Source: Candidatus Calescibacterium sp.
GTDB taxonomy: Bacteria; Calescibacteriota; Calescibacteriia; Calescibacteriales; Calescibacteriaceae
Reading direction: 5' to 3'
Length of the DNA: 64,000 nt
Assembly (NCBI GenBank): GCA_025060505.1
Contig: JANXBU010000011.1
Coordinates: 1 to 64,000 of the forward strand
Shown here: one piece after another, positions 39,205 to 64,000 of the stretch
Numbering within the stretch: position 1 is the stretch's first letter
Layout: each line of letters starts with the position of its first letter
Translations under genes and position numbers: made by a program
Notes under the pieces: generated by a model
Told to the model about the DNA's origin: nothing
Database searches by the model: none
The model's input: the letters and a program-made list of their open reading frames with translations, nothing else

Positions 39205-39882
39205 ATGAAAGACATAGCAGTTTCAATACACCAACCGCAATACTTACCTTATCTTGGATACATACACAAGATGAAACTAGCTGATGTTTTTGTGTTTCTT
39301 GATGATGTTCAGTTCAAAAAAAACGAATGGCAAAACAGAAACAGAGTCAAAGGAACAAACGGTCAGATCATATGGCTCACCATACCTGTTCTACATAATT
39401 TCGGACAGAAAATAAATGAAGTTGTAATTAAAAACTCAATACCCTGGCAAAAACAGCACAGAAACACACTGAAAACATACTACTCAAAAGCTCAACACTT
39501 TCACATGATAGAAAAATTCAACAAACTCTGGTCTGAACAATATGAAAAACTCGTTGATGCAAATATAGATTCAGTAAAAATCTTGGCAGAAATATTCGAA
39601 GTAAAATCAAAATTCATCCTCTCCTCATCGCTGAGAATAGAAAAAACAAAAACAGAGAGACTTGTAGCAATATGCAAGGAACTTGGCGGTAAGATCTACA
39701 TATCTGGTGTAGGAGCAAGAGAATATCTTGATGAAAGCGCTTTTGCAAGAGAAGGAATAGAGATAGTTTGGCAAAAGTTTGAGCATCCTGTATACCCGCA
39801 ACTTCATGGAGAATTTATACCTAATCTTTCAGCAATAGATCTGGTGCTCAATGTTGGTGAGAAAGCAAAAGATATGATATAG
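39205..39882 (+). CDS. WbqC family protein
   Basis: 225 residues, a near-complete match by eye to the WbqC-like family: SIHQPQYLPYLGYIHKM at the start, FLDDVQFKKNEWQNRN, and IYISGVGAREYLDE in the middle. WbqC proteins occur in O-antigen and other surface-polysaccharide loci; their biochemical function is poorly defined. It marks the start of the glycan/radical-SAM region. The ATG is preceded by AATTATATAA and no Shine-Dalgarno. The 245 bp after it show nothing recognisable. Confidence 0.88.
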   Translation: MKDIAVSIHQPQYLPYLGYIHKMKLADVFVFLDDVQFKKNEWQNRNRVKGTNGQIIWLTIPVLHNFGQKINEVVIKNSIPWQKQHRNTLKTYYSKAQHFHMIEKFNKLWSEQYEKLVDANIDSVKILAEIFEVKSKFILSSSLRIEKTKTERLVAICKELGGKIYISGVGAREYLDESAFAREGIEIVWQKFEHPVYPQLHGEFIPNLSAIDLVLNVGEKAKDMI

Positions 39883-40127
39883 AATTGAAACAAAACATAG
39901 ATTTAGAAAAAAGTTCAGAATAATATGATTACACCAAAGAAATACAATAATTCCAAATAGAAATCATTATATCTAATTTGCTCTACCAATATCTCAGATC
40001 CACATAAGAACAACACAGGTAGCTTCCAGGCTATTAATTTCATTATATGAATTTCTTGGTAAAGCATACAAGTATCACCGCAAAACAAAGCTTACTAGCT
40101 AAAATGAAACAAAATAAATCTTGCAAT

Positions 40128-41513
40128 TTAGGATGTAAGAATAGAGGAAATGATTCTGAATATAACTTTAAGCTGAGCTATTGACTTGATCTTTCTTAAA
40201 TTCTTAAGAAGAAATTTTGGCCTTACATAAAAAGCAAAATAAGCAAAAGCCTGAATAAATCTCAGAATAAGAGAACCAACTTTTCTTTCCACAAATTTTG
40301 AAGAACGATACAGATTGAAAGTAGAAATTATTTTATCCCACATTTCAATCGGATATTTTCCCTTTATATTTCTCCACTCATCCGTTCCGGGAAAAGGATT
40401 GAATATAAAGTATCCAGCCTTGTTTATGGGAGCAGAAAGCGAGAAAGAAATTGTTCTGACCATGTCTCTTAAGTTTTCAGTTGGATAACCAATAATGAAG
40501 TTCCCCTGAACATGGAATTTATACTTCTCAATTAGTTTCAGTTTATCTATTACTTTCTGGATGCTTAGTTTTTTCTTCATAAAATCAAGAGTCTTTTGAT
40601 TATAAGACTCAATACCAAGAGCAAAAGCATAAAATCCAGCTTTTTTCATAAGCTCAAGTATCTGTTCATCAACGAGATCAACTCTTATTCCAGACGGCAG
40701 AGCAAACCTCACCGGAAAATTTGCTTCAATAAGAGAATTGAGAAGTCCAATTAACCATTTTCTTGGAGCAATTGTAATGTTATCGTCTATTATATGTATC
40801 TCCTCCATCCTATACTTGGAAACCAGAAGTTCTATCTCAGATATTATATATTTATGTTCTCTTGTTCTGATAATTTTACCTGATATAGCTGGAACACCGC
40901 AGAATGAGCAAGGATATGGACATCCACGCGTTGTTACTATTTGAGCTATTTTTGTTTTTTCAGAAAATATGCCTATTGGCAATGGTGGATATGTATCTGG
41001 CCTTACAAGATCCCAAGCTGGCAAAGGGTATCTGTTTACATCAACAAACTCCCTATGATTTACTACTATCTCACCGTTTTTCCTCCAAACCAGATTCGGT
41101 ATATCGTTATGTTTCTGTTTTGTTATTTTTATCAAAGTTTCCTCACCATCTCCCACGCAAGCAAAATCTACACTTTTGAGAAAATACAATGTATGCTCAG
41201 GTTCAAAAGTTGGATGCGGACCTCCCACAACTATTATGGTATCTGGTGAAACCTTTTTTATCTCATCCGAATATTGCCTCACAGATCTAATTAGCGGACT
41301 CAGAACATAAAAACCAACAACATCAAATTTCTCTCTCTTTACTATTGTTGCTAATTTCTCTGGACTAATCCTATCTTTCGCAGCATCAATTATCTGAACA
41401 TCATAGCCATTCATTATAATAGATGAAGCAAGATAACCAAGCGATTGCGGCTGAAGAAATCCAAACATTTTTCTTTCAAGATCGGCAGGATTTACAAGAA
41501 GAAATTTCATCAT
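40128..41513 (-). CDS. B12-binding-type radical SAM enzyme (1 of 7)
   Basis: About 461 residues from the ATG pair at 41513/41510; the longer frame upstream lacks a sensible start. Residues 1-150 form the cobalamin-binding-like Rossmann domain (KFLLVNPAD, VVGFYVLSPL, VVGGPHPTFEPE, CVGDGEETL). The radical SAM cluster motif is GCPYPCSFC (Cys198, 202, 205). HIIDDNIT and FALGIESYNQ follow, and the C-terminus has the FYVRPKFL motif common in this group. The classical DxHxxG cobalamin motif is absent, as in many BchE-like members. Its closest relative in the window is the enzyme at 57997. The substrate is unknown; by family a methyl transfer, cyclisation or oxidation on a lipid, sugar or cofactor. 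Confidence 0.85.
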   Translation of the reverse strand: MMKFLLVNPADLERKMFGFLQPQSLGYLASSIIMNGYDVQIIDAAKDRISPEKLATIVKREKFDVVGFYVLSPLIRSVRQYSDEIKKVSPDTIIVVGGPHPTFEPEHTLYFLKSVDFACVGDGEETLIKITKQKHNDIPNLVWRKNGEIVVNHREFVDVNRYPLPAWDLVRPDTYPPLPIGIFSEKTKIAQIVTTRGCPYPCSFCGVPAISGKIIRTREHKYIISEIELLVSKYRMEEIHIIDDNITIAPRKWLIGLLNSLIEANFPVRFALPSGIRVDLVDEQILELMKKAGFYAFALGIESYNQKTLDFMKKKLSIQKVIDKLKLIEKYKFHVQGNFIIGYPTENLRDMVRTISFSLSAPINKAGYFIFNPFPGTDEWRNIKGKYPIEMWDKIISTFNLYRSSKFVERKVGSLILRFIQAFAYFAFYVRPKFLLKNLRKIKSIAQLKVIFRIISSILTS

Positions 41514-41639
41514 CCATTCATTAGATTTTAGTTTCAGAAAAAACAAATTAGCAAATAATAAACACACCGAACAATGAAGCAATATTAAAATGGTAAGTTT
41601 TGATAATACAACAGAGTTTAGAGATTTAGAAGTTAAAAT

Positions 41640-42599
41640 ATGAAAAAAACAAAGCTTGTAGCTGGAATAGTTCTTGTTGTTGTGGCTCTAGAAATATTCT
41701 TGAGATTTTTCTTTACTCTGGGTTATAATCTCCTTTCCTTCAAAATAATAGCTCCTCTTTCAGTTAACATAAATTCACTTAGAGAAAAAGTTCTTTCAGA
41801 TGAGAGATTCTTTTCAACAAAGCATCCAGAACTTGGATTTGTCATAAAACCGAACATCAATATATCTTACCAAGCAAAAGAAATAAGCAATGATATACCT
41901 TCTGTATCTTACAGAACCATAGATGTTTTTGGAGACGGAAAATTTGGAGCTCGGGATGACGGAATAGATAAAAAACTCTGGGCAATCGCAATTGGTGACT
42001 CCTACGCATTCTGCTATTCTATTGAAATGAGCAGATGTTGGGTAGAGATAATAGAAAATGAAACAGGAAAAGATGTTCTGAACTTAGGAACTCCCGGAAC
42101 AGGCACATACCAGCAGTACAAAATCCTTGAATATTTTTTGAGAAGATATAATCAGAAACCAGAGTTTGTATTCCTTATGTTCAATTTCACAGATTACCTC
42201 GATGACCAGTGCTATCTACACAGAAAAAACTGCAACATTTTCTCACCAAACACATCTTTTCTTTTTGAAGATACATTTTTGGGCAACTTCTATATTATAG
42301 GCGTATTTAAAACTGTTATTGATTCAATTCAAACCAGAAAAACATACTCCTACCTTATGGAACCAGAAACAACTTATTTGAAGAACATCAAAGATGTATG
42401 CTCATGCGAAGTTATACTGATACCGGCTTACAACTATGTTAAGAACCTGCGAATATGTAGCTCATATCATTGTGTTAGACTAAACTATACAGAAGATATG
42501 TTTATGAAAGAACATCATAATGAAAAGGCACAAGATTATATTGCGAAAAAAGTTATTGAATATCTCAAAACCAACTTTAATCAGAACTTTCAGGAATGA
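41640..42599 (+). CDS. SGNH-hydrolase-like membrane-anchored protein A
   Basis: 319 residues with an N-terminal transmembrane anchor (about 7-26). Block I of the SGNH fold is IAIGDSYAF (Ser121), with a GTPGTGTYQQ block (about 147-156) and MFNFTD (about 189) as further blocks. The usual catalytic DxxH near the C-terminus reads KEHHNEKA, so the Asp position is Lys. A region rich in cysteine (CSCEV, CSSYHC) precedes it. By family it could be an acyl esterase or acetyltransferase-like enzyme of envelope polysaccharides (AlgJ/AlgX type). It is a paralogue of 44943-45950 (shared RDDGIDK...GDS). The stop overlaps the next ATG. Confidence 0.7.
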   Translation: MKKTKLVAGIVLVVVALEIFLRFFFTLGYNLLSFKIIAPLSVNINSLREKVLSDERFFSTKHPELGFVIKPNINISYQAKEISNDIPSVSYRTIDVFGDGKFGARDDGIDKKLWAIAIGDSYAFCYSIEMSRCWVEIIENETGKDVLNLGTPGTGTYQQYKILEYFLRRYNQKPEFVFLMFNFTDYLDDQCYLHRKNCNIFSPNTSFLFEDTFLGNFYIIGVFKTVIDSIQTRKTYSYLMEPETTYLKNIKDVCSCEVILIPAYNYVKNLRICSSYHCVRLNYTEDMFMKEHHNEKAQDYIAKKVIEYLKTNFNQNFQE

Positions 42600-43342
42600 A
42601 ACTAAGCATAGTTATACCGTTTAAAGATGAAAAAGATCTACTACCTGCTTTAATAAACCATATTTTGCAGAGCGTACCTATTCAGAAAGAAATCATAGCT
42701 GTGTATGATGAAAAAAGCTCAGATGTTGCTCGCTATATTGAAAAAGCTGTAAAGAACTTCTCAGATATCAACGATGAAATCAAATTTCTGAAGAACAAAT
42801 ATGGAAGTGGTGTTCCCAACGCAATAAGAACTGCTCTGGAGCACTGCACAGGAGATCCCATTGTTTTTATGACCGCAGATTTCTCAGATGATCCAAAAAC
42901 TATTAACCAAATGATAGAAAAAATAAAAGAAGGGTCAGACATAGTTTGTGGGTCAAGATTCTCAAAAGGAGGTGGATATCTAAATGGCAACCTATTGAAA
43001 AAGCTAGCTTCTCAAATGACAGGGGTTTCCCTTCATTACATCACTGGAATACCAACAAAAGACATCACCAACACCTTCAAAATGTTCAGAAAGAAAGTTC
43101 TTGAAGATGTAGGAGTCAAAGGTGATGGATTTGAGTGGGCAATGAGAGCTACATGCAAATCGTTTTACAAAGGTTACAGAATATCAGAAGTTCCACACGT
43201 ATGGAGAGAAATGAGAAAAGAAAAGAAAACAAATTTCAAAACAAAATGGATTATAAACTACCTGAAAATATATGTCTGGACTATTATGAACAGATTTAGA
43301 ACTTTCAGAGAATCATACATAGCACATATTTTTGAAGTTTAG
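42596..43342 (+). CDS. Family 2 glycosyltransferase (polyprenyl-phosphate sugar synthase-like)
   Basis: A 248-residue GT-A enzyme. SIVIPFKDEKDLLP starts the nucleotide-binding half; FMTADFSDDP is the DxD-type metal site in the same context as dolichyl-phosphate mannose synthases; VCGSRFSKGGGY and DITNTFKMFRKKVL follow. Such enzymes load a sugar onto polyprenyl phosphate, which would supply the GT-C/PMT-like membrane enzymes found nearby. No C-terminal transmembrane helices are present. Its ATG overlaps the stop of the SGNH-like gene (ATGA), so the pair is likely co-translated. Confidence 0.88.
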   Translation: MKLSIVIPFKDEKDLLPALINHILQSVPIQKEIIAVYDEKSSDVARYIEKAVKNFSDINDEIKFLKNKYGSGVPNAIRTALEHCTGDPIVFMTADFSDDPKTINQMIEKIKEGSDIVCGSRFSKGGGYLNGNLLKKLASQMTGVSLHYITGIPTKDITNTFKMFRKKVLEDVGVKGDGFEWAMRATCKSFYKGYRISEVPHVWREMRKEKKTNFKTKWIINYLKIYVWTIMNRFRTFRESYIAHIFEV

Positions 43343-43438: not shown

Positions 43439-44965
43439 TTATAAAAAGAAAATTACAAAATGTTCTCCAAATTTAAAAACCTCTTTCGGTTCAAGATATT
43501 TCTGCATATCCTCAAAAGAAACTCCGTAAGCCGAACATGATAGGTCAAATCCAATTGCTCTGTATCTTGATCTTATGAATTTGATATTTCTCTGAACATT
43601 TCCGAGAACCTGATGACAGACAAAATAATCTATATTCAACTTACCTTCTGAAAGAACATAGGGAAAGCCAACCGAAAGAGGAGCAGAAATGAATAACATT
43701 TTCTCATCATCTAAATTCTGAATGAGAAAATTTGTTACCTCCTTTTGAATCTGCAAAGGAGAACCATAACCTATTTTCAGAAAAAACTCCGATCTTTCCC
43801 CCTTCATCTCAGATCTAGGATCTCTTGAAAAATCAGCGGAAGATATAAGAACTGATAGAACAATAAAAAACACAATCAAAACAAAACCTACAAGCTTCTT
43901 GGCTCTGCCAAGGACATACAATATCGGGAAAAAACAAAATGGAGTAAACATAGAAAAATATTTTCTCCATCTTGAGAATCTATCAAAAACAATCTCTCTA
44001 TCATTTACAACAAAAAATAGGAAAATCAGAGAAGCAACAAAAATTATAAGACCTGTAATATTTATAATCAATATCACTTCTTTCACTTTATCTCTCACCT
44101 TACCTGATGCCAGAAGAATCAATGATATAACAAAAGAAATCAGATTTATATTCAGAAATATAACATGCGGGAATGTGAATAGATAGATGAAGACCTTCAA
44201 TTTCTCTACAAAAGTATCTCTTTTTTCTCCGAGCTGACCATAATACAAATTTGATAAATCCGGATGCATAAGCAATATTAGAATCGGAACAAGCACAAGA
44301 AATACAAGAGCGAAAAAGTTTAGCAAACCGAACATTTTATAATTCATACCTTCAAAAAATCTCCTACCAATAAAATACATAATTAGCAAAAAGAGAATAA
44401 ACCAAGAGGTATTGAGGTGCAAAGCCAAGATCAGAAAAAGAACTTTTATCCTTACATTGCTTGAAAGAAGCGCTAAATAAAACATACAAAATGAAAGTAT
44501 GATCGGGTTCATCTCATAGATATATGAAATAAAGCCTATATGCATCTGAAATGCAATGGTCCCAAGAACAGATATCCAGAAATCAAATATCCTTGAGAGC
44601 AAAACATAAACCACAAAAGAACAAACTATATATGTGATCAAATTGAAAAGTCTCAGATAAAATGGGTCAAGTTTTAAGTTCCATATAGTCTTCAGAACAA
44701 AAGATGATAAATATCCTACATTGTATTGACTTGAAATTAGAGAAACATCCCCAAAACCGGGTATTCGCATCACAGCTGGTGGGAAATCATCGTAATAAAT
44801 CTCAAAAGACTTTTCGTTACCTGAACCGAAATTTTTGACATATATAAATTCACCAGTTGTTATACCAAGACTTTTTATTCCTTTGTAAGCATGTATTGAG
44901 ACGAAAAAAAGCGTTAGAGAAATTATCAGGAAACCTATTAGCTTAATTCTGCTTTCTCTCTTCAT
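43439..44965 (-). CDS. Polytopic membrane protein, possible GT-C glycosyltransferase
   Basis: 508 residues with about ten hydrophobic helices and a C-terminal soluble tail of about 110 residues. An N-terminal signal-anchor and an extracytoplasmic first loop containing acidic residues (EIYYDDFPPAV) fit the general plan of GT-C enzymes, but I see no firm signature. The start overlaps the 3' end of the upstream SGNH-like gene by 23 bp, so the two are coupled. The substrate would be a lipid-linked sugar if the assignment is right. Confidence 0.5.
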   Translation of the reverse strand: MKRESRIKLIGFLIISLTLFFVSIHAYKGIKSLGITTGEFIYVKNFGSGNEKSFEIYYDDFPPAVMRIPGFGDVSLISSQYNVGYLSSFVLKTIWNLKLDPFYLRLFNLITYIVCSFVVYVLLSRIFDFWISVLGTIAFQMHIGFISYIYEMNPIILSFCMFYLALLSSNVRIKVLFLILALHLNTSWFILFLLIMYFIGRRFFEGMNYKMFGLLNFFALVFLVLVPILILLMHPDLSNLYYGQLGEKRDTFVEKLKVFIYLFTFPHVIFLNINLISFVISLILLASGKVRDKVKEVILIINITGLIIFVASLIFLFFVVNDREIVFDRFSRWRKYFSMFTPFCFFPILYVLGRAKKLVGFVLIVFFIVLSVLISSADFSRDPRSEMKGERSEFFLKIGYGSPLQIQKEVTNFLIQNLDDEKMLFISAPLSVGFPYVLSEGKLNIDYFVCHQVLGNVQRNIKFIRSRYRAIGFDLSCSAYGVSFEDMQKYLEPKEVFKFGEHFVIFFL

Positions 44966-45950
44966 TATGTACGAAGTCTAATATCTGTTGAGCGAGGAAC
45001 CTTGAACCCTTTGGATTGTGGTGCCTATCGTTTGGTATAAACATGTCTTCGGTATATTTCGGATAAATGCATCTGTATTTTGAGCAAAGCCTTGGCTTCA
45101 CAATAGATCTATATGAGTATATTATGATAAGCTTACAACCTATATTTTGACATATATCTTCTGCTTCATTGAAGACTTTTGCATCCGGTTCTCTTGGTTG
45201 TTCATCAAAAGTGAAACGAAATTTTACTACATCATACAGAGTTAAAATAAATCCTACAAGGAATGAATAATTTATAAGCCCCAAAGCACTGTTGGCAGGA
45301 GTATATATAAACAGAGGAGAAAAAATATTGCACATCTTGCCTTCAAGAAAACAAAGATCATCTTGATAATCTGTGAATGTTATTTGCCAGAAGATGTACT
45401 TTATACTCTGCTTTCTATCTCCAAGCTTCTGAAAAACTTTCTTTAACATCAAAAGCTCCTGATATGTTCCCCAGCCATAAACACCTGTATTTATTACATC
45501 AAGGTTGCTCTCATTTTCCACGATCTCAACCCAGCAGTCTTTCATATCAAGGTGCATACAGAAGGTAAAAGAATCTCCAACAGCCAAAGCAAAAAGCTCC
45601 TTGTCTATACCATCATCTCTCAAACCGAATTCTCCATCGCCAAATAAATCTTTTGTCTCATAAAGTATATCTTGACCATAAGGATTTCTGATGTAAAACT
45701 TGTGATCTGGTTTGAAAACATACGCGAGTTCCTTATGAGGTATTGTTGAACCTATCTGCTCATCTAAATTTCGCAACTCAACAACGTTCTTGACCATAAC
45801 GTGTGTCATCGTTTGAATAATGTTAGGTAATGGTAAGTTCATAGAGATCAGAGCTTTTGGAACAAAGTAGAAAAAAAGCCTTGAAATTATTTCAAGAGAA
45901 AATAAGATAACAAGAATAATCAAAAAATATTTAAGGACTGAGCGAGCCAT
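44943..45950 (-). CDS. SGNH-hydrolase-like membrane-anchored protein B
   Basis: About 335 residues. I place the start at 45950: the longer frame has an unlikely N-terminus, whereas MARSVLKYFLIILVILF is a signal anchor and TAAATT lies exactly 7 nt upstream. It shares LRDDGIDKELFALAVGDSFTF with paralogue A; the nucleophile would be Ser127. The C-terminal block reads NDRHHNPKG, with the expected DxxH, so this copy keeps the full Ser-His-Asp pattern. It is first in a unit with the membrane protein 43439-44965. Confidence 0.72.
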   Translation of the reverse strand: MARSVLKYFLIILVILFSLEIISRLFFYFVPKALISMNLPLPNIIQTMTHVMVKNVVELRNLDEQIGSTIPHKELAYVFKPDHKFYIRNPYGQDILYETKDLFGDGEFGLRDDGIDKELFALAVGDSFTFCMHLDMKDCWVEIVENESNLDVINTGVYGWGTYQELLMLKKVFQKLGDRKQSIKYIFWQITFTDYQDDLCFLEGKMCNIFSPLFIYTPANSALGLINYSFLVGFILTLYDVVKFRFTFDEQPREPDAKVFNEAEDICQNIGCKLIIIYSYRSIVKPRLCSKYRCIYPKYTEDMFIPNDRHHNPKGSRFLAQQILDFVHNEERKQN

Positions 45951-45957
45951 ATATTTA

Positions 45958-46125: not shown

Positions 46126-47658
46126 ATGGCAAGAATTCTTCTTATACATCCTGGTCTCAATGCAAAAGATGGTAATTACTACACAATAATGCCTATGGGA
46201 TTGATCTCCATAGGTGATAAATTGGAAAAAGATAAACACGAAGTAAGAATACTGAATCTCGGTCTTGAGAAAAAATTGAACAAATCTTTTTCGCTTGAGA
46301 AATACCTTGATTCATTCAAACCAGATTTCGTCGGAGTAGATATGCACTGGTATCCATATATCTATGACTCAATAGAAGTAGCAATGATATGCAAATCAAA
46401 AGGAGCTGTTGTTATTTTAGGAGGACTGACCGCATCAATTTTTGCGAAAGATATACTTGAAAGATTTCCCTTCGTAGATGGAGTTATTGTTGGACAGGGT
46501 GAGATCCCGTTCTCCGAGCTAGTCAAGAACTGGAACAAAGATAAAAGCCTCGTACCAAATTTAGTCTACAAAAACGGAGAGAAAATCTTACTACCGTCTA
46601 AATTCGCAGACACTTCAGAGAATATTGATCGCCTTGAATTTTATAATTTTGATCTGATAGAGAATAAAGATTTCTATCTGAAAACAACAACATCTACTGG
46701 TAACTTCACAGTAATAAATTCCAAATATATACCAAAGAAATTTTACTTTCTGTTTGTAGGAAGAGGATGCTCAATGTTTTGCTCAAACTGCTGTGCAAAT
46801 TCATACAACTTTAAGAAAATAGGAATAGACAAACCTTTGTTCCGCAGTCCAAAAAGAGTAGTCCGAGACATACTGAATCTCCAAAATATGGGTTTTGATC
46901 TCCTATATATACAATTTGATCCAAAACCTTTTTCTGAAAAGTTCTATGATGAACTTTTTGATGAGCTAAGAGCTGTAAGACACAAGCTCAACATGGGTAT
47001 AGTCTTTGGCTCCTGGGGAGGCTCTATTCCATCAGATAATATGATAAAAAACATAAGTCAAATGTTCTGCCCTGAGATGAGCACTATAGAAATTTCTCCA
47101 GAATCCGCAGTTGAACGCATCAGAAGGATGAACGGAAGAGGTAACTACTCCAACGATGAAATAATAGAGTCAATAAATAAAATAAAAAGAAAAAAAATAC
47201 ATGTATGCTGTTTTCTCTCTGCAGGATTCCCTTTTGAAGGACCGGAAGATGCATACAAGACAATAGAATTTGCAAAGTATCTAATAGATCTTGATGTTTC
47301 AGCCAGCTTTTTTCCGCCAAACATTGAACCAGGCTCTCCAGCTTGGTATTTTCCTGAAAGATATAAGATAACGCTTTTCAGAAAAACCTTCGATGACTTT
47401 ATGGAATACTCAATTATGCTCAAAGACTGCATATACCCAGAACATCCTATCGGATACGAAACCCATCTCCTAAAAGAGAAGGAAATCATGGAACTTGAGA
47501 TGAAAGCTTACTCAGAACTGTATCTGAATAGAAAATTTATTCTGAACAGATTCAAGTACTCGGTCAGGTCATCAGATAGAATCTTGCCTAAGATAACGGT
47601 TTTTAGCTCCATAATCTTTAAAAACTATAAACTTATTTGGATGTTTAAAAAATCTTAG
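46126..47658 (+). CDS. B12-binding-type radical SAM enzyme (2 of 7)
   Basis: 510 residues. The N-terminal Rossmann-like domain has RILLIHPGLN, KPDFVGVDMHWYPY, VVILGGLTAS and IVGQGEIPF. The [4Fe-4S] motif is GCSMFCSNCC (Cys215, 219, 222). The radical SAM barrel continues with EISPESAVERIRRMNGRG. It is the most divergent of the seven: it has GGLTAS in place of GGPH and an extra Cys beside the cluster motif. The last 87 bp overlap the convergent radical SAM gene at 47572-49086. The substrate is unknown. Confidence 0.83.
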   Translation: MARILLIHPGLNAKDGNYYTIMPMGLISIGDKLEKDKHEVRILNLGLEKKLNKSFSLEKYLDSFKPDFVGVDMHWYPYIYDSIEVAMICKSKGAVVILGGLTASIFAKDILERFPFVDGVIVGQGEIPFSELVKNWNKDKSLVPNLVYKNGEKILLPSKFADTSENIDRLEFYNFDLIENKDFYLKTTTSTGNFTVINSKYIPKKFYFLFVGRGCSMFCSNCCANSYNFKKIGIDKPLFRSPKRVVRDILNLQNMGFDLLYIQFDPKPFSEKFYDELFDELRAVRHKLNMGIVFGSWGGSIPSDNMIKNISQMFCPEMSTIEISPESAVERIRRMNGRGNYSNDEIIESINKIKRKKIHVCCFLSAGFPFEGPEDAYKTIEFAKYLIDLDVSASFFPPNIEPGSPAWYFPERYKITLFRKTFDDFMEYSIMLKDCIYPEHPIGYETHLLKEKEIMELEMKAYSELYLNRKFILNRFKYSVRSSDRILPKITVFSSIIFKNYKLIWMFKKS

Positions 47659-55329: not shown

Positions 55330-56583
55330 AAAATTTTTCTCAAAAAATGGGAACTCAAAATCTTTTTTGGGACTCAGAGTAAAATCCTTACACCAATCTT
55401 TAAAACCAGACCTGACCAACAAAGAATATAGTTCGCTACCGGGCGTTGGCACGAATATATTAGCCTGAGCATAGTTTGGCTTAACAGAAATACAAAAATC
55501 TATAGTATCTTGTATATCTCTTTCTGTCTCGTTTGGGAAACCTATCACAAAATAAAGAGCAACCTTTATACCATATCTCCTTGCAAGGAAAACAGCCCTT
55601 CTTACATCATCTGTTTTAACGGCTCTTTTGAGCGACCTGAGAACATTATCGCTTCCAGACTCCGCTCCCAAAAACATAATCTTACAACCAGATTCTTTCA
55701 TAAGTTCAACAGATTCTTCATCCAAAGTCTTCGCAACACCCCTGAAACTCCAATTTATCTTCAAATTCCTTTTTATAATTTCTCTACACAAATCTTTTGT
55801 GTGATTTATATTCACATTCATAGTATCATCAGCAAAGCTTATGAAGTTATATCCCATATCAACGAGATATTCTATTTCATCAACTATGTTTTTTGGAGAT
55901 CTTATCCTGTAATTTCTCCTCGCAAGCTGACAGTAAGAGCAAGAGTAAGGACAGCCCCTTGAAGCTATGGTTATCACCTCGTTCGCTCCAGCATACAAAT
56001 TTGAATAAAAAGAATTTAGAACAAGTGATCTATCTGGAAAAGGTATTGAATCAAGATCAAGTATAATATCTGAATTTCCATTGCTGTAAATCTGACCATC
56101 TTTCTTGATCCAAAGTCCCTTTATCTGAAACATCTTATCTGTTCTGAAGTTTTCCACAAGATTATGAAAGGCTATCTCAGACTCTCCTACAATCAGAGCA
56201 TCTATGAAATCCTGAGACAAAATCTCATAAGGATACAACGAAGAGTGTATCCCACCAGCTACAACAAAAACATCTCTGTTCTCAGACTTTACCAGCTTTG
56301 CAATTTGATATGAATCATACAAAGATAGAGTATAGAGTGTTATGCCAACGATATCTGGACGAAAAGATTGCACAACCTCACGGGTTGCTTTCAGATAATC
56401 TGAATCACTAACACCCTCTGGAAAATCAAGAACTCTTACATCAATACCTGACTTCAACCTAAGATACGTAGCTATATACAGCAAAGATAATGGATGTTGT
56501 TTTTTTCCGGCCAGACTGTAAAACGGAGAACCAAAATATCTTATAGAATTTGTATCTGGTGGATGTATTAAAAGAACTCTCAT
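55072..56583 (-). CDS. B12-binding-type radical SAM enzyme (5 of 7)
   Basis: 503 residues. RVLLIHPPDTN, DIVGITLYTLSLYDSYQIA, VAGGIHSSLYPYE and IVGESEIAF form the N-terminal domain. The cluster motif is SRGCPYSCSYCQ (Cys211, 215, 218), then YRIRSPKNIVDEIEYL. It is very similar to the convergent enzyme at 53647, so the two form a tail-to-tail paralogous pair. The C-terminal FYLRPTFLLSEIF is followed by a hydrophobic stretch (VVSGFIKFAFQFVLWIIL) that may sit in the membrane. Its ATG overlaps the stop of the upstream radical SAM gene (TGATG). Confidence 0.87.
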   Translation of the reverse strand: MRVLLIHPPDTNSIRYFGSPFYSLAGKKQHPLSLLYIATYLRLKSGIDVRVLDFPEGVSDSDYLKATREVVQSFRPDIVGITLYTLSLYDSYQIAKLVKSENRDVFVVAGGIHSSLYPYEILSQDFIDALIVGESEIAFHNLVENFRTDKMFQIKGLWIKKDGQIYSNGNSDIILDLDSIPFPDRSLVLNSFYSNLYAGANEVITIASRGCPYSCSYCQLARRNYRIRSPKNIVDEIEYLVDMGYNFISFADDTMNVNINHTKDLCREIIKRNLKINWSFRGVAKTLDEESVELMKESGCKIMFLGAESGSDNVLRSLKRAVKTDDVRRAVFLARRYGIKVALYFVIGFPNETERDIQDTIDFCISVKPNYAQANIFVPTPGSELYSLLVRSGFKDWCKDFTLSPKKDFEFPFFEKNFSKKKLQKLQRKFYRKFYLRPTFLLSEIFSRIFLIGRNLFAVRAKRNGAVIGRNSIVSMNFSVVSGFIKFAFQFVLWIILGKNPSK

Positions 56584-57956
56584 CAGGCTACCTGATGAAG
56601 ATTAGTTCTCCTATCCTTGAAAGTTCCAACCTTCATAAAATATTTGAAACCTTCCAAAAAGGAGACATTATAAAGAGTCTTTAATTTCAGGAGAGAGTAT
56701 ACCTGTCCTATCTTCGAAAACAGAAAACTCAAAATAGGATTTTTATGTGCTCTCATAGATAATACCTGAAAAGTTTTATTTTTTGAAGCTAACGGAAAAA
56801 CATCCATAACATAGTAAAGTATCTTTTTTTTCTCGGAATCGTATTGATGACCAGCAAGCTTATCTCCAAGAATAGTTCCAGGAATAGGTACAAATGGAGA
56901 TCCTAATGCAAAATCTACACCTATTGTTCTGTTGAACTCTGCTGTTTTGAAGTAATCAGATAAATCTTCTCCTGGTAGTCCAATTATGTTAATAGATAGG
57001 GTCCTGATACCTTTCTTTCTAAGAGAGTCCACAGCACCTATCAGTACGCTGTTTGTGACGGATGTTTTCTCCAAATCAACAATCCTTCGCTTTTCATCGT
57101 ATGTTTCAACTCCGACTATGACAAATTTACATCCAGCTTCTTTGAGAAGCTCCGCAACACGATCGTTTATGAAATTTGAAAGAGTCACAATTGAGAATGG
57201 AAGTCTAACTTCTTTGCTCCACAAACTTGAAAATTTCTCAAGCCAAGACTTATTCCATACAGGAAAAAGGTCATCAGAAAAATGAACAAAATCTAGTCTA
57301 TATTTGTTTTTCACATCTAAAACCTCCTGAATAACTCTCTCCGGCGCCTTGAACCTAACTTTTACTTTGCCAAGTAGATTTCTCAAAGCAGATATGTAGC
57401 AGAACGAACAAGAAAGAACACATCCGCGAGACATAAGAAATCTCTTCACCGGAAAATCTCTGAGAAATTTATACCTTCTATAATATATATCCCTGTCTGG
57501 CATCGGTAAGGAGTTGAGGTCAAATTCAAGCGGCTGTATGTTAGCATGTTCTCCGTTATTCATATCTATAACATTTATGAGCTCGTTATTTGTACCTTTC
57601 AGATAATTTACAATAGAAACAAATGGTATCTCAGGTTCTCCCACAACCAAAAAATCAGCTCCCAAATTGGATTTTTTTTGCATGAAAGTTGGAATTGAGC
57701 CGAAAGAAACAACCGGAGTTCTCGGAAAATTATACTTGATCTCGGAAGTCATATCTCTAACCCACTGCTCATCTCCTATTTCAGATTGCACAGCTAGTAC
57801 ATCTACTCCCATCTTCTTGATAGTCTGAAAAAGGTCTTTCTCATATGCTTGTATAAGTAAGAAGGTCTCACAACCCTCCTGAATCAAAACAGACGAAAGA
57901 TCGCAGATAACCGGTGATTCTTCTATTCCCTTTCTCTGTATTATACATACTTTCAT
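56583..57956 (-). CDS. B12-binding-type radical SAM enzyme (6 of 7)
   Basis: 457 residues. The N-terminal domain is less regular (KVCIIQRKG, VVSFGSIPTFM, LVVGEPEIPFVS). The cluster motif is SRGCVLSCSFC (Cys179, 183, 186), then VRFKAPERVIQEV and VIVGVETYDEKRR. SINIIGLPGEDLSDY is the conserved barrel strand. A GGAG Shine-Dalgarno lies about 9 nt upstream. It sits between enzymes 7 and 5 in a tight minus-strand unit (40 bp after one, TGATG overlap with the other), so all three are probably one transcript. Confidence 0.85.
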   Translation of the reverse strand: MKVCIIQRKGIEESPVICDLSSVLIQEGCETFLLIQAYEKDLFQTIKKMGVDVLAVQSEIGDEQWVRDMTSEIKYNFPRTPVVSFGSIPTFMQKKSNLGADFLVVGEPEIPFVSIVNYLKGTNNELINVIDMNNGEHANIQPLEFDLNSLPMPDRDIYYRRYKFLRDFPVKRFLMSRGCVLSCSFCYISALRNLLGKVKVRFKAPERVIQEVLDVKNKYRLDFVHFSDDLFPVWNKSWLEKFSSLWSKEVRLPFSIVTLSNFINDRVAELLKEAGCKFVIVGVETYDEKRRIVDLEKTSVTNSVLIGAVDSLRKKGIRTLSINIIGLPGEDLSDYFKTAEFNRTIGVDFALGSPFVPIPGTILGDKLAGHQYDSEKKKILYYVMDVFPLASKNKTFQVLSMRAHKNPILSFLFSKIGQVYSLLKLKTLYNVSFLEGFKYFMKVGTFKDRRTNLHQVA

Positions 57957-57996: not shown

Positions 57997-59370
57997 TCAT
58001 TTGTTATCTAGAAACCTTTTCATAACCATTTTTACTTGGTCAAAGCTCTTGACTCCCTTCACAAAGTTCCATATATATTTTGGTCTCGCATAGAAGCTAA
58101 CGAAAGCTCGCAACTTCAGAAGATCTAGTTCCTTTTTAGTTCGTCCCTCCGGAACATAGGAGAACTTCCATATACAAAGAGAAGATGGGTCTGGTGTTTT
58201 TCTCTGTAATTTTAGTTTTTCCCATTCAGCAGAACCCGGCAGTGGAGCGAAACATCCAAAAGCAGCATGATCTATTGGTAAAGAAAGAGCAAAATTTATA
58301 GTCTCTATATCATCATCATAGGTTGCTCCCGGAAAACCCAAAATAAAGAAGGCTGTTACTCTTATTTTCGTATATCTCTTTATCATCTCTATCTGCTTTC
58401 TGATTTTTTGTTTTTCAAGAACATCTCCTCCTCTTCTCATCAACTTCAGAATTCTTTCGCTCCCAGATTCAACTCCAACAGAAAAGGCGTAACATCCGGA
58501 TTTCTCCATCTCAATAACGAGTTCCGGATCAAGCCTATCAAGTCTGACTCCGTTTGGACATCCCCAAGGTACTCCTATATCTTTCATATACTTGCATATA
58601 CTTAAAGCATACTCTCTATCAAAAGTCAGGTTATCGTCTAAAAAATGTATCTCATCTATTCCATATTTAGAAACCAGCATTTCCACTTCTTTTGCAACGA
58701 GCTCAGGTGATCGTTTCCTTATTTTTTTACCAGAAGCCTGCGGAGCTCCACAGTAAGAGCAGTTGTATGGACATCCTCTGGTCGCTATAACCGGTGCAAC
58801 CTTTCTTCCACGTGTGAAAAAACCAACAGGTCTCAGCGGATACTTGCTCGGATCCGGCATTATCTCCCAGGCTGGCATGGGATACCTATCTAAGTTCTCA
58901 AGAAATACTCTCCTTTTCTTTATAATTTTTCCGTTGATCCTGTAAGCGTAGTTTGAATCTGGTTCTTCTCCCCTCAAAATCTGTGGCAAAGACTCCTCAG
59001 CTTCCCCTAAAAAAGCATAGTGAAGATTCGGTATCCTCAAAAAGCAATCCTCCGTCTCAAATATGGCATGCGGCCCCCCTACAGCGAATATGCAATCTGG
59101 ATTCTCTTTTCTGTACTCTTCAACATATCTGTTGACAATAGATATGACCGGAGAAAAAGATTGGAAACCTATAAAATCAACTCTTCCATATTTTCTCTTC
59201 ACATAACTTGAAAAGTTCTCCGGTGGAATCTTTTCTTTTCTCAAATCCTCAATAAATATATCCCCTTTGAATCCATTGACAATCAAACCCTGAGCTATAT
59301 ACCCCAAAGATAGCGGTGGTATACACCAGTAATCCCTTGGATCGTACGGATATGCCAGAAGAACCCTCAT
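57997..59370 (-). CDS. B12-binding-type radical SAM enzyme (7 of 7)
   Basis: About 457 residues from the ATG at 59370 (the frame is open to a TTG at 59376); TAAGAT 6 nt upstream supports this start. RVLLAYPYDPRDYW, FAVGGPHAIFETED and FLGEAEESL form the cobalamin-type domain. The cluster motif is TRGCPYNCSYCG (Cys200, 204, 207), then IRKRSPELVAKEVEML and EIHFLDDNLTF. VGVESGSERILKLMRRGG and ILGFPGATYDDD follow; the FYARPKYIWNF motif closes it. It is the closest relative in the window of the enzyme at 40128-41513. It is first gene of the three-enzyme minus-strand unit. Confidence 0.88.
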   Translation of the reverse strand: MRVLLAYPYDPRDYWCIPPLSLGYIAQGLIVNGFKGDIFIEDLRKEKIPPENFSSYVKRKYGRVDFIGFQSFSPVISIVNRYVEEYRKENPDCIFAVGGPHAIFETEDCFLRIPNLHYAFLGEAEESLPQILRGEEPDSNYAYRINGKIIKKRRVFLENLDRYPMPAWEIMPDPSKYPLRPVGFFTRGRKVAPVIATRGCPYNCSYCGAPQASGKKIRKRSPELVAKEVEMLVSKYGIDEIHFLDDNLTFDREYALSICKYMKDIGVPWGCPNGVRLDRLDPELVIEMEKSGCYAFSVGVESGSERILKLMRRGGDVLEKQKIRKQIEMIKRYTKIRVTAFFILGFPGATYDDDIETINFALSLPIDHAAFGCFAPLPGSAEWEKLKLQRKTPDPSSLCIWKFSYVPEGRTKKELDLLKLRAFVSFYARPKYIWNFVKGVKSFDQVKMVMKRFLDNK

Positions 59371-59373
59371 CAT

Positions 59374-59690
59374 CAAATCTTAATCATTGTAAACCTTTGA
59401 TTTCCTATTCTTGAATAATCCCCAGAAAGAGGACGAAGACTGAAAAATTCATCTAAAAAATTCATAAAAGCTGATAAAAAATCATAAAAGCAAGATATTG
59501 ACGGGAATGAGAGTACCGCTTACTTTCACAAGCATAAACGCTTTGCAACAATCAAAACATCAATGATTCCTAAATTTTCTGACTCCTATCCAAAACACAG
59601 AGATTTCAACAGAGTAAAAACAAAATCTGATCATAATTAATAAAGAGCAAAAACTTCTCACAAGATAAAATTATCTCAACAACCAACGTC
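59374..59690. other. Intergenic stretch without recognisable features
   Basis: A 317-bp A+T-rich interval between two minus-strand genes. The first bases hold the -10-like TAAGAT of the radical SAM unit (59377-59382 on the minus strand). I see no ORF, hairpin or repeat of note in the rest. Confidence 0.5.
59377..59382 (-). promoter_or_regulatory. Candidate leaderless -10 element
   Basis: TAAGAT on the minus strand lies 6 nt before the ATG at 59370, at the head of the three-gene radical SAM unit. Confidence 0.35.
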
Positions 59691-60599
59691 CTACAGTGAA
59701 ATATTTCTATTCCAAAAAGATTTATTTTTACTGAGATTTCTTATATCAATTCCGAAGTTATTTAGAATCTTATATCTTTTTCCAATCTCAAACGCCAAAA
59801 AACGAAGTATAATTCTTTTAAAAAATTCAGCCATTAGGTTTGGATTTTTTACTAAATCTGGATTTTTTATTAAAAAGAGAAGTTCTGAAATAACGATATT
59901 CAAAGCATATCTTCTGAATCCAGAGAAAACATATGGTGTCTTTGAGAATGCAACACCAACATCAAACCACCTTCTGAAAGTTTCCAAAGAGCTCTCATTA
60001 TGGAAGTGCCAAACCTTCAAATTCGGATTGTACATAACTTTATAACCAGATCTCAATAACTTGAATGAAATGATCAGTTCCTCCGAACATATTACATTCT
60101 CAGGGAAGCCACCGAGCAGTTCAAAAATTTTCTTTTCAACAGCAAAGCATACATTAGAAACGAAAATATCCTCAAATTTAAGTTTAGATTTCCAAGATTT
60201 AGTAACTATATTATCATTATAAACGAACTCCCTTTCAAACTTTTCAAAGATATTTTGATCATCACCAACTACATGCTTGCCATAGACTGCTTTGACTTGA
60301 TCATCTATTGAAGAAATTATCTCTGCTGCGAAATTATCTCCGTAGGGTCTTGCATCTTGTGTCATAAAAAGTAGTATATCGCCTTTTGCTAAACTTGCTC
60401 CTTTATTTCTGGTTGAACCATGATCAAAGCTATCTTCTTGAAGAACAAGAACTCTTTTACCATTTACTCTGTCTTCTATATTACCCAAAGACAAAGAGCT
60501 GTCGAGTATTATAACCTCGTTTATCTCTTTGTATTTGAGCAAAGTTTTATGATTTTCAAAGTATTTTGGATCTGAAACGGGTATTATAACGCTTATCAT
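59691..60599 (-). CDS. Family 2 glycosyltransferase (rhamnosyltransferase-like)
   Basis: A 302-residue GT-A enzyme. SVIIPVSDPKYF opens the domain; FDHGSTRNKGASLAKGDILLFMTQDARP is kept in the order typical of rhamnosyltransferase-like GT2 proteins, with TQDARP as the metal site. SNVCFAVEKKIFELLGGFPE and ICSEELIISFKLLRSGYK form the acceptor half, with VWHFHNESS near the end. No transmembrane helices are evident. It probably adds a deoxysugar or similar residue in the surface-glycan pathway. No Shine-Dalgarno precedes the ATG. Confidence 0.85.
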   Translation of the reverse strand: MISVIIPVSDPKYFENHKTLLKYKEINEVIILDSSLSLGNIEDRVNGKRVLVLQEDSFDHGSTRNKGASLAKGDILLFMTQDARPYGDNFAAEIISSIDDQVKAVYGKHVVGDDQNIFEKFEREFVYNDNIVTKSWKSKLKFEDIFVSNVCFAVEKKIFELLGGFPENVICSEELIISFKLLRSGYKVMYNPNLKVWHFHNESSLETFRRWFDVGVAFSKTPYVFSGFRRYALNIVISELLFLIKNPDLVKNPNLMAEFFKRIILRFLAFEIGKRYKILNNFGIDIRNLSKNKSFWNRNISL

Positions 60600-60724: not shown

Positions 60725-61669
60725 ATGAAAACTCCGAAGAATTTGATTATTTTGATTTTTATTATATTTCCTTTGTGTCAGAGAAGTAACATCCCCAAAA
60801 ATGTAAAAGAAGGAAGCATGTTGGAGATTCCAGAAATCTCGCAAGATATATGCCCAAAAGAAAATTATGAACCCGAGAAAAAATACATATACACTTTGAT
60901 TTTCACAATAAGAACAATTTGGAACTTAATAGATTTTCTCTTACTCTCAAACACAATGCACTTACCGCAGATTTCAAAATGTGAAGAAGGAAAAATAAAA
61001 GAAAAAAAAACAGAAATCAAAATGAACAACGAAACGAAAGAAACAAACGAAAGAAATTTCATATCCTGCAAAAATCATCAAGATATAATTGATGGGAAGA
61101 TATACATATCAAATAACGAGTTTATACCGTCGGAAGTATGGTTTAGCCAAAAAGGAGAATTCATACGAAGATACACTTTTATAAAAAACGGGCATGTAAA
61201 GTTTATACCAGCAAATTATCAAGGTCTTATGTACGGTATAAGAAATTTATTAATATACTCTTTCATAGACTTTTCATCGGTTCTAAACGAAAAATTATTG
61301 TATTTACACGGAAGTGTAGCTATAAAACCGCCCTATTCAATATACTATAAAGGAGATTATAAAGAGTACATACCAAAGGAAGAGCAATATTACATGATAA
61401 ATTTTCAGAAGTTAAAAATTGACCTTGCTATTCAAGAAGGAAGCTTTTCGGTTAGTGGAGAATCTGAATTTTCTATCACTTCAAAAATTGCATGCGGCAA
61501 TTTTAAACTAAAATCAGATAACATAAATGTTTCGCCACTTGCTGCCTTTTCATACGACCCTTGTGGATACGAAGGAAAAATCGAAATCAACGAGTACAGC
61601 ATAAGCATATCAAACCAATCAATATATTTTGGCGACAAAAAGATATTTTGCTTTGAACTATTTGAATAG
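60725..61669 (+). CDS. Exported hypothetical protein
   Basis: 314 residues with an N-terminal hydrophobic segment (about 7-18) ending in PLCQ, a poor lipobox. The mature part is strongly lysine/glutamate-rich near residues 90-120, then beta-rich. The C-terminal half has repeated short strands (FSVSGESEFSITSKIACG, YEGKIEINEYSISISNQSIYFG). I recognise no family. Its 3' end overlaps the convergent membrane protein gene by 12 bp. Its codon and purine bias match neighbouring plus-strand genes, so it is likely real. Confidence 0.6.
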   Translation: MKTPKNLIILIFIIFPLCQRSNIPKNVKEGSMLEIPEISQDICPKENYEPEKKYIYTLIFTIRTIWNLIDFLLLSNTMHLPQISKCEEGKIKEKKTEIKMNNETKETNERNFISCKNHQDIIDGKIYISNNEFIPSEVWFSQKGEFIRRYTFIKNGHVKFIPANYQGLMYGIRNLLIYSFIDFSSVLNEKLLYLHGSVAIKPPYSIYYKGDYKEYIPKEEQYYMINFQKLKIDLAIQEGSFSVSGESEFSITSKIACGNFKLKSDNINVSPLAAFSYDPCGYEGKIEINEYSISISNQSIYFGDKKIFCFELFE

Positions 61670-63148
61670 ATCTTTCTTTTTGTATATCTTTATAGATTTA
61701 CCGAAAGTCTCGAAGACCAAATCAAATTTTCTTGTATTAAGAAATAGCTCTGTTTCTTCTGAAAGAACAGCATAATCAAACTTCTTCAAGATCTCATAAA
61801 GACCTTGAAAATCATGTGTTCTCGTATACAAGAAAAATAATCCTTCAAAGCTTTTTATGCTACCTTTACTTTCGAATTCAATTGAGCTGAATATTCCAAG
61901 ATTCAGAACTTCTGAAACTTTGTTTGATTCTAAATAATCTATAACTTCTTTGACCTCACTTTTTGAATACTGAGTTTTTGAGTTGATTATTTTTAGTAAT
62001 ACGAAAAACGAAAAAATAATCTGACCAAACAAAACGGCATACAAAAATATCTTCCTCTCTACGATGAATTTGTAAAAGAACGGAAGAATCAGTAGAAACT
62101 GCCAAGATATCTGTGTGAAATTGAAAAGTCCATACGGATTGCTAAAAGGCGCAAGAAAAATGTAAACCAGAATAAACATAATCTCCTTGAAATTTTTTCT
62201 CAAATCAATCAATCCATAAACTAGAACCAAAACAAAAAATAATGTTGATACAACTCTAAGATAAGGATTTTTATCTTTAATTATACCAAGGTCTACGAAA
62301 GGTTCAAGAGAGAAAAAAAGGGAAGAAAAGCTACTGAAAGCTTTGATAATCTCCTGAGTTATATTGAAATCTCCCGAGAGCAAATAATTCAAAACGAAAT
62401 TTCCTATATCCGATGGTGATCCAAACAGAACTTCAAAAGAGTTTTTATCCAAATTTATATCGTGAACTGCGGAAAGAAAAATATACGGTGTTAAACCCAA
62501 AAAACTTCCCAAAAGAGCCAATACAATACACCTGAGATTGAAAAATATAAGGGCGAAAAAAACAGAAAAACTGAAAAACCTTATATGAGACAGAACACCC
62601 AAAAAAGATACTACAAAAATCAAGAGATACTTTCTGTTGTTATCTTCACCTGTGATATCTTTAACATGCAATAAGGCCAGAGAAAAAAACAACATAAGAA
62701 CATACCAAAAAAGAGATGTATAAGATAAGACAAAAACAACAAAGGCATTGGTATAGAGCAATAAAAAAATAGGTGTAACATTTCTGAAAATAAACAACAT
62801 AATAATTCCTAAAAACACTCCAACAAATCTCATTGCAAAAGTGCTGTACTCAGAACCAATCTTGTATGCTATGTAAGGAAGAATTGTTGAAAGAGGACCA
62901 TGTTGCGGAAAAAGTATGAATGGGAAACTGAGATTTCCAAACTCCACAATCATCTTCGGTGGCATCTTATTTATTTGAATATTCAGATGATCTCCAAAAG
63001 ATATCATCTTGGACTCATCAGAAATCCATCTTGATTTGAGAGAAACTATCTGCTCCTCTCTATTTGCTGATATATTTTTGAGAGAAAAAAAATAGAATAC
63101 CAGAACAATAAAAGATAGAAACAGAAAAATAAAAAATTTTCTATTCAT
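61658..63148 (-). CDS. Polytopic membrane protein, probable GT-C glycosyltransferase
   Basis: About 496 residues from the ATG at 63148 (AAGGA 8 nt upstream), which gives a normal signal anchor (NRKFFIFLFLSFIVLVFYFF). The longer TTG frame adds only basic residues. About ten hydrophobic helices follow. The first extracytoplasmic loop has SRWISDESKMIS with acidic residues where PMT-like enzymes carry theirs. The C-terminal soluble tail (EVKEVIDYLESNKVSEVL...) is short. By context it transfers a sugar from a polyprenyl carrier. It is divergent from the partial membrane protein at 63206 with 57 bp between starts. Confidence 0.6.
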   Translation of the reverse strand: MNRKFFIFLFLSFIVLVFYFFSLKNISANREEQIVSLKSRWISDESKMISFGDHLNIQINKMPPKMIVEFGNLSFPFILFPQHGPLSTILPYIAYKIGSEYSTFAMRFVGVFLGIIMLFIFRNVTPIFLLLYTNAFVVFVLSYTSLFWYVLMLFFSLALLHVKDITGEDNNRKYLLIFVVSFLGVLSHIRFFSFSVFFALIFFNLRCIVLALLGSFLGLTPYIFLSAVHDINLDKNSFEVLFGSPSDIGNFVLNYLLSGDFNITQEIIKAFSSFSSLFFSLEPFVDLGIIKDKNPYLRVVSTLFFVLVLVYGLIDLRKNFKEIMFILVYIFLAPFSNPYGLFNFTQISWQFLLILPFFYKFIVERKIFLYAVLFGQIIFSFFVLLKIINSKTQYSKSEVKEVIDYLESNKVSEVLNLGIFSSIEFESKGSIKSFEGLFFLYTRTHDFQGLYEILKKFDYAVLSEETELFLNTRKFDLVFETFGKSIKIYKKKDLFK

Positions 63149-63192
63149 ATTTATATTCCTTTTTCTCAATTTAACTAAAATCAAACGAAAAC

Positions 63193-63198
63193 TATATT
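63193..63198 (+). promoter_or_regulatory. Candidate leaderless -10 element
   Basis: TATATT ends exactly 7 nt before the ATG at 63206, with no Shine-Dalgarno. Confidence 0.4.
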
Positions 63199-63205
63199 TA
63201 TCAAT

Positions 63206-64000
63206 ATGAAAGTTTTGTCTTCGGTTTCAGTTCTGATACTTTCTGTAATATTCTTCCTGATAAATCTATACAAGACCTTCCCTTTTGATGAAAATTTTTC
63301 CAAGATACATTACGTAGGATTCAACGCCCATCACCTGTACTATATAACTACTATATCTGAAAACATAGCAGAATCCTTGAGATTCACAAAAATAGTCCAG
63401 AGCAAATGTGTTTTTGAAGAATGCAGAAAACTATATCAGCACAATCCTTCTGCTTTCTGGATAGCGCTTATTTTTTCACTGATACCGAAAAATAATCACG
63501 AACTAGCATTTGCCATCTTAAACCTAACATCTGCAATAGCAGTGTTTATATTCTCAGTAATATTTTCATTCACAAGAGGCAAAATTCTTTTGCTACTCAT
63601 AACTCCATATATTTCATCACTGATTACAAGATTTATGATGACAGGCGGAATTGTTGTACATCTGATACCCTCTTTGCTGTTTATTTTAGGTTGGATGAAA
63701 CTAAAAGAATTCGAAGAAGATAAAAGGAATTTTAGAATATTTGCTTCATCTGTTCTGATTTCCATTGCTTGCTTTATGAACATAATGTTCATTGTACCAG
63801 CATCAATACTATATTTTGCTTATGCGAACCAGATCAGAAGCAAAATAATTATACCAGCATTTACATTTTTGATTATTTCACCGTTTTACCTGATTTATTT
63901 CTATCAGCACAGAATATGTGTTCCAAATGAATGGAGAGATATAATAGCTTACGAATTTTTCGGGAGACAATCTGACATAGGATTTATATACTCAATAAAA
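63206..64000 (+). CDS. Polytopic membrane protein, cut by the window end
   Basis: 265 codons open to the right edge. It begins MKVLSSVSVLILSVIFFLIN, a signal anchor, then an extracytoplasmic loop (YKTFPFDENFSKIHYVGF) and several hydrophobic helices (WIALIFSLIP, LLLLITPYIS, IIVPAFTFLIISPFYLIYF type). The arrangement resembles the other GT-C-like membrane proteins here, particularly its divergent neighbour. No signature decides the family in the visible part. Confidence 0.6.
   Translation, partial: MKVLSSVSVLILSVIFFLINLYKTFPFDENFSKIHYVGFNAHHLYYITTISENIAESLRFTKIVQSKCVFEECRKLYQHNPSAFWIALIFSLIPKNNHELAFAILNLTSAIAVFIFSVIFSFTRGKILLLLITPYISSLITRFMMTGGIVVHLIPSLLFILGWMKLKEFEEDKRNFRIFASSVLISIACFMNIMFIVPASILYFAYANQIRSKIIIPAFTFLIISPFYLIYFYQHRICVPNEWRDIIAYEFFGRQSDIGFIYSIK

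Follow-up and report, generated by a model that had tools for sequence, protein, structure and literature searches.

A dense cluster of seven B12-binding-type radical SAM enzymes in a candidate surface-glycan locus of Candidatus Calescibacterium

Seven radical SAM enzymes in a compact locus

The window analyzed here spans positions 1 to 64,000 of contig JANXBU010000011.1 (64,342 bases) in the assembly of a Candidatus Calescibacterium genome (GCA_025060505.1; 2.28 Mb, 115 contigs, 86% complete). This lineage is little known and uncultured, and its closest named relative is bacterium HR19. From position 39205 onward, the window contains a locus in which genes for seven radical S-adenosylmethionine (SAM) enzymes with B12-binding-type domains (hereinafter B12-rSAM) are interleaved with genes for glycosyltransferases, polytopic membrane proteins, and SGNH-type proteins (Table 1; genes are denoted by their lower coordinate). 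The contig end (64342) falls within the polytopic protein gene 63206, so the locus is truncated.

The seven radical SAM frames are open at the positions listed in Table 1 and span 40128–59376. An initial annotation had placed seven CxxxCxxC radical SAM enzymes with B12-type domains within ~19 kb, and this was borne out by Pfam searches and motif inspection. All seven proteins match Radical_SAM (55 to 104 bits; cut-off, 29.5 bits) and contain the CxxxCxxC motif, and in six of them, the B12-binding domain scores above its cut-off (32.1 bits). The exception is 56583, which scores 24.8 bits and has no GGxxx[STAP] loop, indicating a degenerate domain. With this qualification, all seven have the class 1 architecture, in which a B12-binding-type domain precedes the CxxxCxxC radical SAM domain, and all are full-length with intact cluster motifs. 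The frame of 40128 was over-extended at a TTG start (41582); the conserved part begins at ~41513, and the start was corrected accordingly, so that the transmembrane segment predicted for this protein is an artifact.

The same order of an N-terminal B12-binding Rossmann-type domain and a CxxxCxxC domain is found in the class 1 cobalamin-dependent enzymes TokK, TsrM, and OxsB and, by family model, in BchE, HpnJ, and HpnR. In contrast to the characterized class 1 enzymes, those in the window include a degenerate member and reach none of the curated NCBIfam equivalog cut-offs (BchE, HpnJ, HpnR, PhpK, KedN5, TIGR04190, and others), and their substrate and cobalamin use are predicted from sequence at most. 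The top NCBIfam score is that of 46126 with TIGR04190 (207.4 of 500 bits), the others being lower. Mapping to known heme, hopanoid, or tRNA enzymes, which would have spoken against the initial annotation, was looked for among these models, and none was found.

In a phylogenetic tree of 149 sequences, from which the clades were assigned, the seven enzymes form five groups: 40128 with 57997, 53647 with 55072, and 46126, 47572, and 56583 each on its own. Identities between the groups are 19 to 29%, compared to 44% within the pair 53647/55072 and ~35% within 40128/57997. Thus, the seven "distinct" enzymes originally described are indeed seven genes but are better viewed as representing five types, of which two are duplicated. 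The paralogs 53647 and 55072 overlap convergently by 258 bp via long C-terminal tails, and 46126 and 47572 overlap, also convergently, by 87 bp.

The source genome contains 11 B12-binding matches in 2.28 Mb (E ≤ 0.001): six of the window enzymes, three proteins encoded on contig 22, a further one encoded at the end of contig 36, and a stand-alone protein of 145 amino acids; the seventh window enzyme, 56583, with its sub-threshold domain, is outside this set. With ten B12-rSAM genes placed at random, the chance of finding seven within 19 kb is ~3e-10, and the two paralog pairs account for part of the clustering. The packing greatly exceeds what chance would produce in this genome and is also unusually dense in comparison with other organisms: the maximum among 79 loci with homologs is five such enzymes in ≤21 kb, and among the matches listed for 15 homolog-rich genomes, there are at most four within 20 kb. 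Some of the latter genomes hold up to 55 such matches, so it is the packing in the window that is remarkable, not the total. The coding strand switches in 12 of the 18 neighboring gene pairs of the locus compared to 6 of 17 in the remaining window, indicating that the locus is not a single operon.

Table 1. Genes of the locus at positions 39205–64000. G002 and HR19 are other genomes of the same bacterial family; TM, transmembrane segments.
Feature	Coordinates	Strand	Evidence
B12-binding-type radical SAM enzyme, clade C, paralog of 57997	40128..41513	-	Pfam B12-binding and Radical_SAM; ortholog on G002 contig 1; clade support 0.995–1.0
B12-binding-type radical SAM enzyme, clade E (TIGR04190-related), conserved-module member	46126..47658	+	Pfam; TIGR04190 207 bits vs 500; split ortholog on G002 contig 15
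B12-binding-type radical SAM enzyme, clade A, conserved-module member	47572..49086	-	Pfam; orthologs 50–66% identical in three loci
B12-binding-type radical SAM enzyme, paralog of 55072	53647..55329	+	Pfam; 44% identical to 55072
B12-binding-type radical SAM enzyme, paralog of 53647	55072..56583	-	Pfam; clade support 1.0
Radical SAM enzyme, degenerate B12-binding-type domain, clade D	56583..57956	-	Radical_SAM 74 bits; B12-binding 24.8 bits (sub-cut-off); HR19 ortholog 47%
B12-binding-type radical SAM enzyme, clade C, paralog of 40128	57997..59376	-	Pfam; clade also present in multi-enzyme loci from other phyla (support 0.979–0.996)
WbqC-like protein (surface-polysaccharide-associated family)	39205..39882	+	Pfam PF08889, 244.9 bits
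Membrane-anchored SGNH/GDSL-type protein 1	41640..42599	+	GDS and C-terminal HxN motifs conserved; paralog of 44943
GT2, polyprenyl-phosphate-sugar synthase type	42596..43342	+	Pfam Glycos_transf_2 82.5 bits; weak resemblance to PgfS, ArnC, AglJ
Polytopic membrane protein, putative GT-C-like layout	43439..44965	-	8 predicted TM and soluble C-terminal part; no Pfam match
Membrane-anchored SGNH/GDSL-type protein 2	44943..45950	-	AlphaFold2 and Foldseek
Saccharopine-dehydrogenase-like NAD(P)-dependent reductase, conserved-module member	49193..50257	+	Homologous to same-family PF03435 proteins; adjoins the same two enzymes in G002
Polytopic membrane protein, putative GT-C	50380..51972	-	23% identity, E 4e-17 to 52050; 9 TM
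Polytopic glycosyltransferase (PMT_2/GT-C)	52050..53594	+	Pfam PMT_2 27.7 bits, over cut-off
GT2 glycosyltransferase	59691..60599	-	Pfam Glyco_tranf_2_2 35.4 bits
Hypothetical protein, possible secreted/lipoprotein-like N-terminus, locus membership uncertain	60725..61669	+	No family match
Polytopic membrane protein, putative GT-C-like layout	61658..63184	-	9 TM; no family match
Polytopic membrane protein, putative GT-C-like layout, cut by window and contig end (64342)	63206..64000	+	29% identical to module-adjoining polytopic protein of G002

Modular distribution within the bacterial family

The family sample searched consisted of the source genome (G000) and four other species (G001 to G004, of which G003 is bacterium HR19), all five genomes being incomplete; the relatives found outside these five have just the domain in common. 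Several of the seven enzymes have orthologs in other genera with 47 to 66% identity over the full length, and those in G002 and HR19 sit in arrangements unlike that of the window. On contig 15 of G002, the saccharopine-dehydrogenase-like reductase and the 46126-type and 47572-type enzymes occur together, with a polytopic protein adjoining. On contig 1 of the same genome, a 40128-type enzyme adjoins a type that is also encoded on contig 22 of the source genome and in HR19. In HR19, enzymes of the 47572 and 56583 types are encoded in the vicinity of an SGNH protein gene. Three of the five genomes (G000, G002, and HR19) contain B12-rSAM enzymes as well as SGNH-family proteins; G001 and G004 have neither. 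With ~1.5 kb of flanking sequence retrieved around the SGNH loci outside this family, direct adjacency of an SGNH gene and a B12-rSAM gene was observed only inside it; a few loci contain both within 10 kb.

Since the sister genera carry the orthologs in groups of two or three enzymes located at different places, and two relatives have none, the locus is better described as accessory and modular than as one fixed pathway. The single-locus pathway idea of the initial annotation is weakened accordingly. In G002, the ortholog of 46126 (locus L025, 13713–15888) consists of three separate frames and the adjoining reductase of two, which reflects either pseudogenes or assembly errors. This broken gene and the two paralog pairs in the window could be taken as signs that the locus is a collection of duplicated genes in partial decay and not a working pathway. 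We consider such decay very improbable because all seven window enzymes are full-length with intact cluster motifs, and the conservation of full-length orthologs in other genera argues for selection.

Glycan-type surroundings and related clusters in other organisms

The glycan-linked genes of the locus encode the WbqC-like protein, two GT2 enzymes, and the PMT_2 protein. The presence of WbqC, the two GT2, two SGNH-like proteins, and a Rossmann enzyme had been noted initially, and all were recovered. By contrast, of the five proteins initially described as GT-C-like, only 52050 (directly, via PMT_2) and its paralog 50380 could be tied to a glycosyltransferase family. All five contain 8 to 9 predicted transmembrane segments and a soluble C-terminal part; AlphaFold2 modeling of the pair 50380/52050 yielded a predicted local distance difference test (pLDDT) score of 38, and the model was not used. 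A search for homologs of 43439 in 386 genomes produced only short, weak matches, none convincing. Both SGNH proteins retain the GDS motif and the C-terminal catalytic histidine. For 44943, the open frame of which starts at 46037 with a probable translation start near 45950, the AlphaFold2 model (pLDDT 72, informative at the fold level only) matched TesA (E 7e-5) and the peptidoglycan O-acetyltransferase PatB (E 1.3e-3) in a Foldseek search, so that modeling supports an SGNH fold for these membrane-anchored proteins. No polyketide synthase, nonribosomal peptide synthetase, or ribosomally synthesized and post-translationally modified peptide genes were seen in the locus.

Among the 79 comparison loci, 19, from bacteria and archaea, contain at least three B12-rSAM enzymes; the bacterial ones include loci from Nitrospirota, Omnitrophota, deltaproteobacteria, Elusimicrobia, Thermoleophilia, Chlorobiaceae, and Patescibacteria. 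The 40128/57997 clade is common to four of these multi-enzyme loci (L108, L103, L054, and L063). Like the window, such loci (these four as well as L042 and L047, for example) combine three or four enzymes with glycosyltransferases, polytopic proteins, or nucleotide-sugar genes, and in a Nitrospirota locus, rml genes lie beside three such enzymes. Unlike the window, they are mostly operon-like on one strand, some have fuller sugar pathways, and none exceeds five enzymes per ≤21 kb. GT2 genes made up 13/97 of the neighbors at multi-enzyme loci compared to 5/93 around single enzymes (Fisher p 0.049), GT4 genes 8/97 compared to 6/93, and nucleotide-sugar epimerases 6/97 compared to at most 2/93. 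A search of IMG/VR returned 12 homologs, mostly single enzymes. No relevant paper on B12-type radical SAM clusters in surface-glycan loci was found, which does not prove that none exists.

A simpler analog is present in a cultured organism. On plasmid pDCAR1 of Solidesulfovibrio carbinolicus DSM 3852 (L176; NZ_CP026539.1, 64000–100000), three radical SAM enzymes of the B12 type and one of the SPASM type are encoded within a pseudaminic/nonulosonic-acid locus. Here, as in the window, radical SAM enzymes are located among glycosyltransferase, acyltransferase, and SGNH/sialate-esterase-type genes, but the plasmid locus has fewer of them and encodes an explicit nonulosonic-acid pathway (PseB, PseC, PseF, and NeuB-like) that the window lacks. 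We found no functional study of the pDCAR1 locus; this organism makes the surface-glycan idea testable.

A different context was detected on an IncF plasmid of Citrobacter portucalensis (L174; NZ_CP134684.1, 53665–63512), where genes for GH3, an N-acetyltransferase, PAP2, and a fatty acid desaturase accompany five B12-type radical SAM genes; in two of the five, the B12 domain narrowly misses the Pfam cut-off. This cluster is likely lipid-directed, and hence, a cluster of such enzymes is by itself no proof of a glycan. The window enzymes, too, could modify membrane lipids through hydrocarbon cyclization, cross-linking, or tailing, with the glycan genes being unrelated neighbors; HpnJ-type and ladderane-type models score moderately, and saccharopine-like reductases can act on lipids. 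We find this improbable, however, considering that no fatty-acid or isoprenoid genes were recognized in the locus, that the glycosyltransferase context recurs in other phyla, and that TIGR04190, the model nearest to 46126, has no match in Sulfolobus acidocaldarius at E 1e-40. S. acidocaldarius has glycerol dialkyl glycerol tetraether ring synthases (Grs), so this result also lowers, indirectly and for the 46126 model only, the case for Grs-type lipid cyclization.

A glycan or glycolipid context, as initially proposed, is the best-supported reading, being consistent with both the genes surrounding the seven enzymes and those around related clusters in other phyla, and the surface-glycan reading is moderately supported. 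Specifically, we consider it fairly probable that the locus functions as a tailoring island, accessory and modular in nature, that acts on a lipid-linked surface glycan or glycolipid. Several observations weigh against this interpretation. No nucleotide-sugar synthesis, flippase, polymerase, or export genes were recognized between 39205 and the end of the window, 342 bases short of the contig end, which leaves every named glycan pathway incomplete in the locus, and three of the five polytopic proteins (43439, 61658, and 63206) have no family match. The enrichment of glycan genes over single-enzyme loci is modest, and the five-enzyme Citrobacter cluster has no annotated glycosyltransferase. The co-distribution of SGNH proteins and the enzymes rests on five incomplete genomes (p 0.10), and none of the SGNH loci fetched outside the family had such an enzyme within the ~1.5 kb of flanking sequence retrieved.

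Similar arrangements are widespread, and the locus is a dense version of them; no functional study of such arrangements was found. More tentatively, clusters of B12-rSAM enzymes in lipid-linked glycan loci might constitute a widespread, undescribed hyper-modification class in uncultured bacteria and archaea that installs radical-made sugar or lipid structures new to microbial surfaces, with the window as the densest case seen. If such clusters have surface glycans as their targets, a substrate class would become available for a large group of radical SAM enzymes of this type, many of which currently lack a known substrate. The seven enzymes together would indicate unusual surface chemistry in this little-known lineage; its named member, HR19, has a smaller version of the cluster.

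Possible chemistry

For the candidate tailoring island, we infer the substrate, the order of steps, and all the chemistry as follows. The GT2 enzyme 42596 would load a sugar onto polyprenyl phosphate, and the polytopic transferases would use polyprenyl-phosphate-sugar donors at the outer face of the membrane. The five types of cytoplasmic radical SAM enzymes may alter sugar or lipid precursors at unactivated positions by C-methylation, deoxygenation, or C-C bond or ring formation. The reductase 49193 could reduce a product of the 46126/47572 pair, and the membrane-anchored SGNH proteins might attach or strip acyl groups outside.

Cobalamin-dependent radical SAM enzymes of this architecture include both methylases and non-methylases and are best known as methylases (PMC13331322). 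If most of the seven are methylcobalamin-dependent C-methylases, the product would be the multiply C-methylated glycan or glycolipid postulated in the initial annotation. The best model for 57997, a Sden_1168 P-methyltransferase, although far under cut-off, is compatible with this scenario, as is a plausible corrinoid supply: CobS (corrinoid synthesis) is present in all five family genomes, and a fused uroporphyrinogen-III C-methyltransferase/uroporphyrinogen-III synthase, at the branch point of tetrapyrroles and corrinoids, is encoded near the island (35678–37282), making cobalamin use possible. We nevertheless regard predominant C-methylation as doubtful, and multiple C-methylation, one of several possibilities, did not find support. 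No equivalog cut-off is reached, the non-methylases BchE and HpnJ are among the best scores, the B12 domain of 56583 is degenerate, and the nearest solved relative in most searches is a dehydratase. Among five enzymes searched singly against solved structures, AprD4 (6fd2) ranked first for 47572, 53647, and 57997 and second for 56583; 46126 had no match.

AprD4 is a radical SAM sugar dehydratase that works with the NADPH-dependent reductase AprD3 (PMC5461906), and the conserved module contains a reductase beside two radical SAM enzymes. The seven enzymes could, accordingly, catalyze mainly AprD4-like sugar deoxygenation or dehydration with a partner reductase and no methylation. As in the apramycin pathway, a radical SAM enzyme would work with an NAD(P)H reductase on a carbohydrate, but the window has no aminoglycoside genes and seven such enzymes instead of one. 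Furthermore, the similarity to AprD4 lies mostly in the radical SAM core and is far under the family cut-off (32 to 96 of 500 bits for NF033070 in the members that match it), and the reductase, which adjoins 46126/47572 in two genera, is saccharopine-dehydrogenase-like. A mainly dehydratase-type function appears unlikely.

Three further features were observed elsewhere in the window. A single frame of 4,346 amino acids (5509–18549), in which repeated fibronectin-III-like and PQQ-like blocks come after a subtilisin-like region, probably encodes a giant surface protein. A luciferase-like monooxygenase gene on the minus strand is apparently split into two adjoining frames (24967–25419 and 25433–26047) by a frameshift, a stop, or an assembly error. 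Finally, two genes predicted to encode bacterioferritin/ferritin-like proteins with 75% identity (29764–30231 and 30429–30899) are located on either side of a tRNA-Glu gene (30345–30422).

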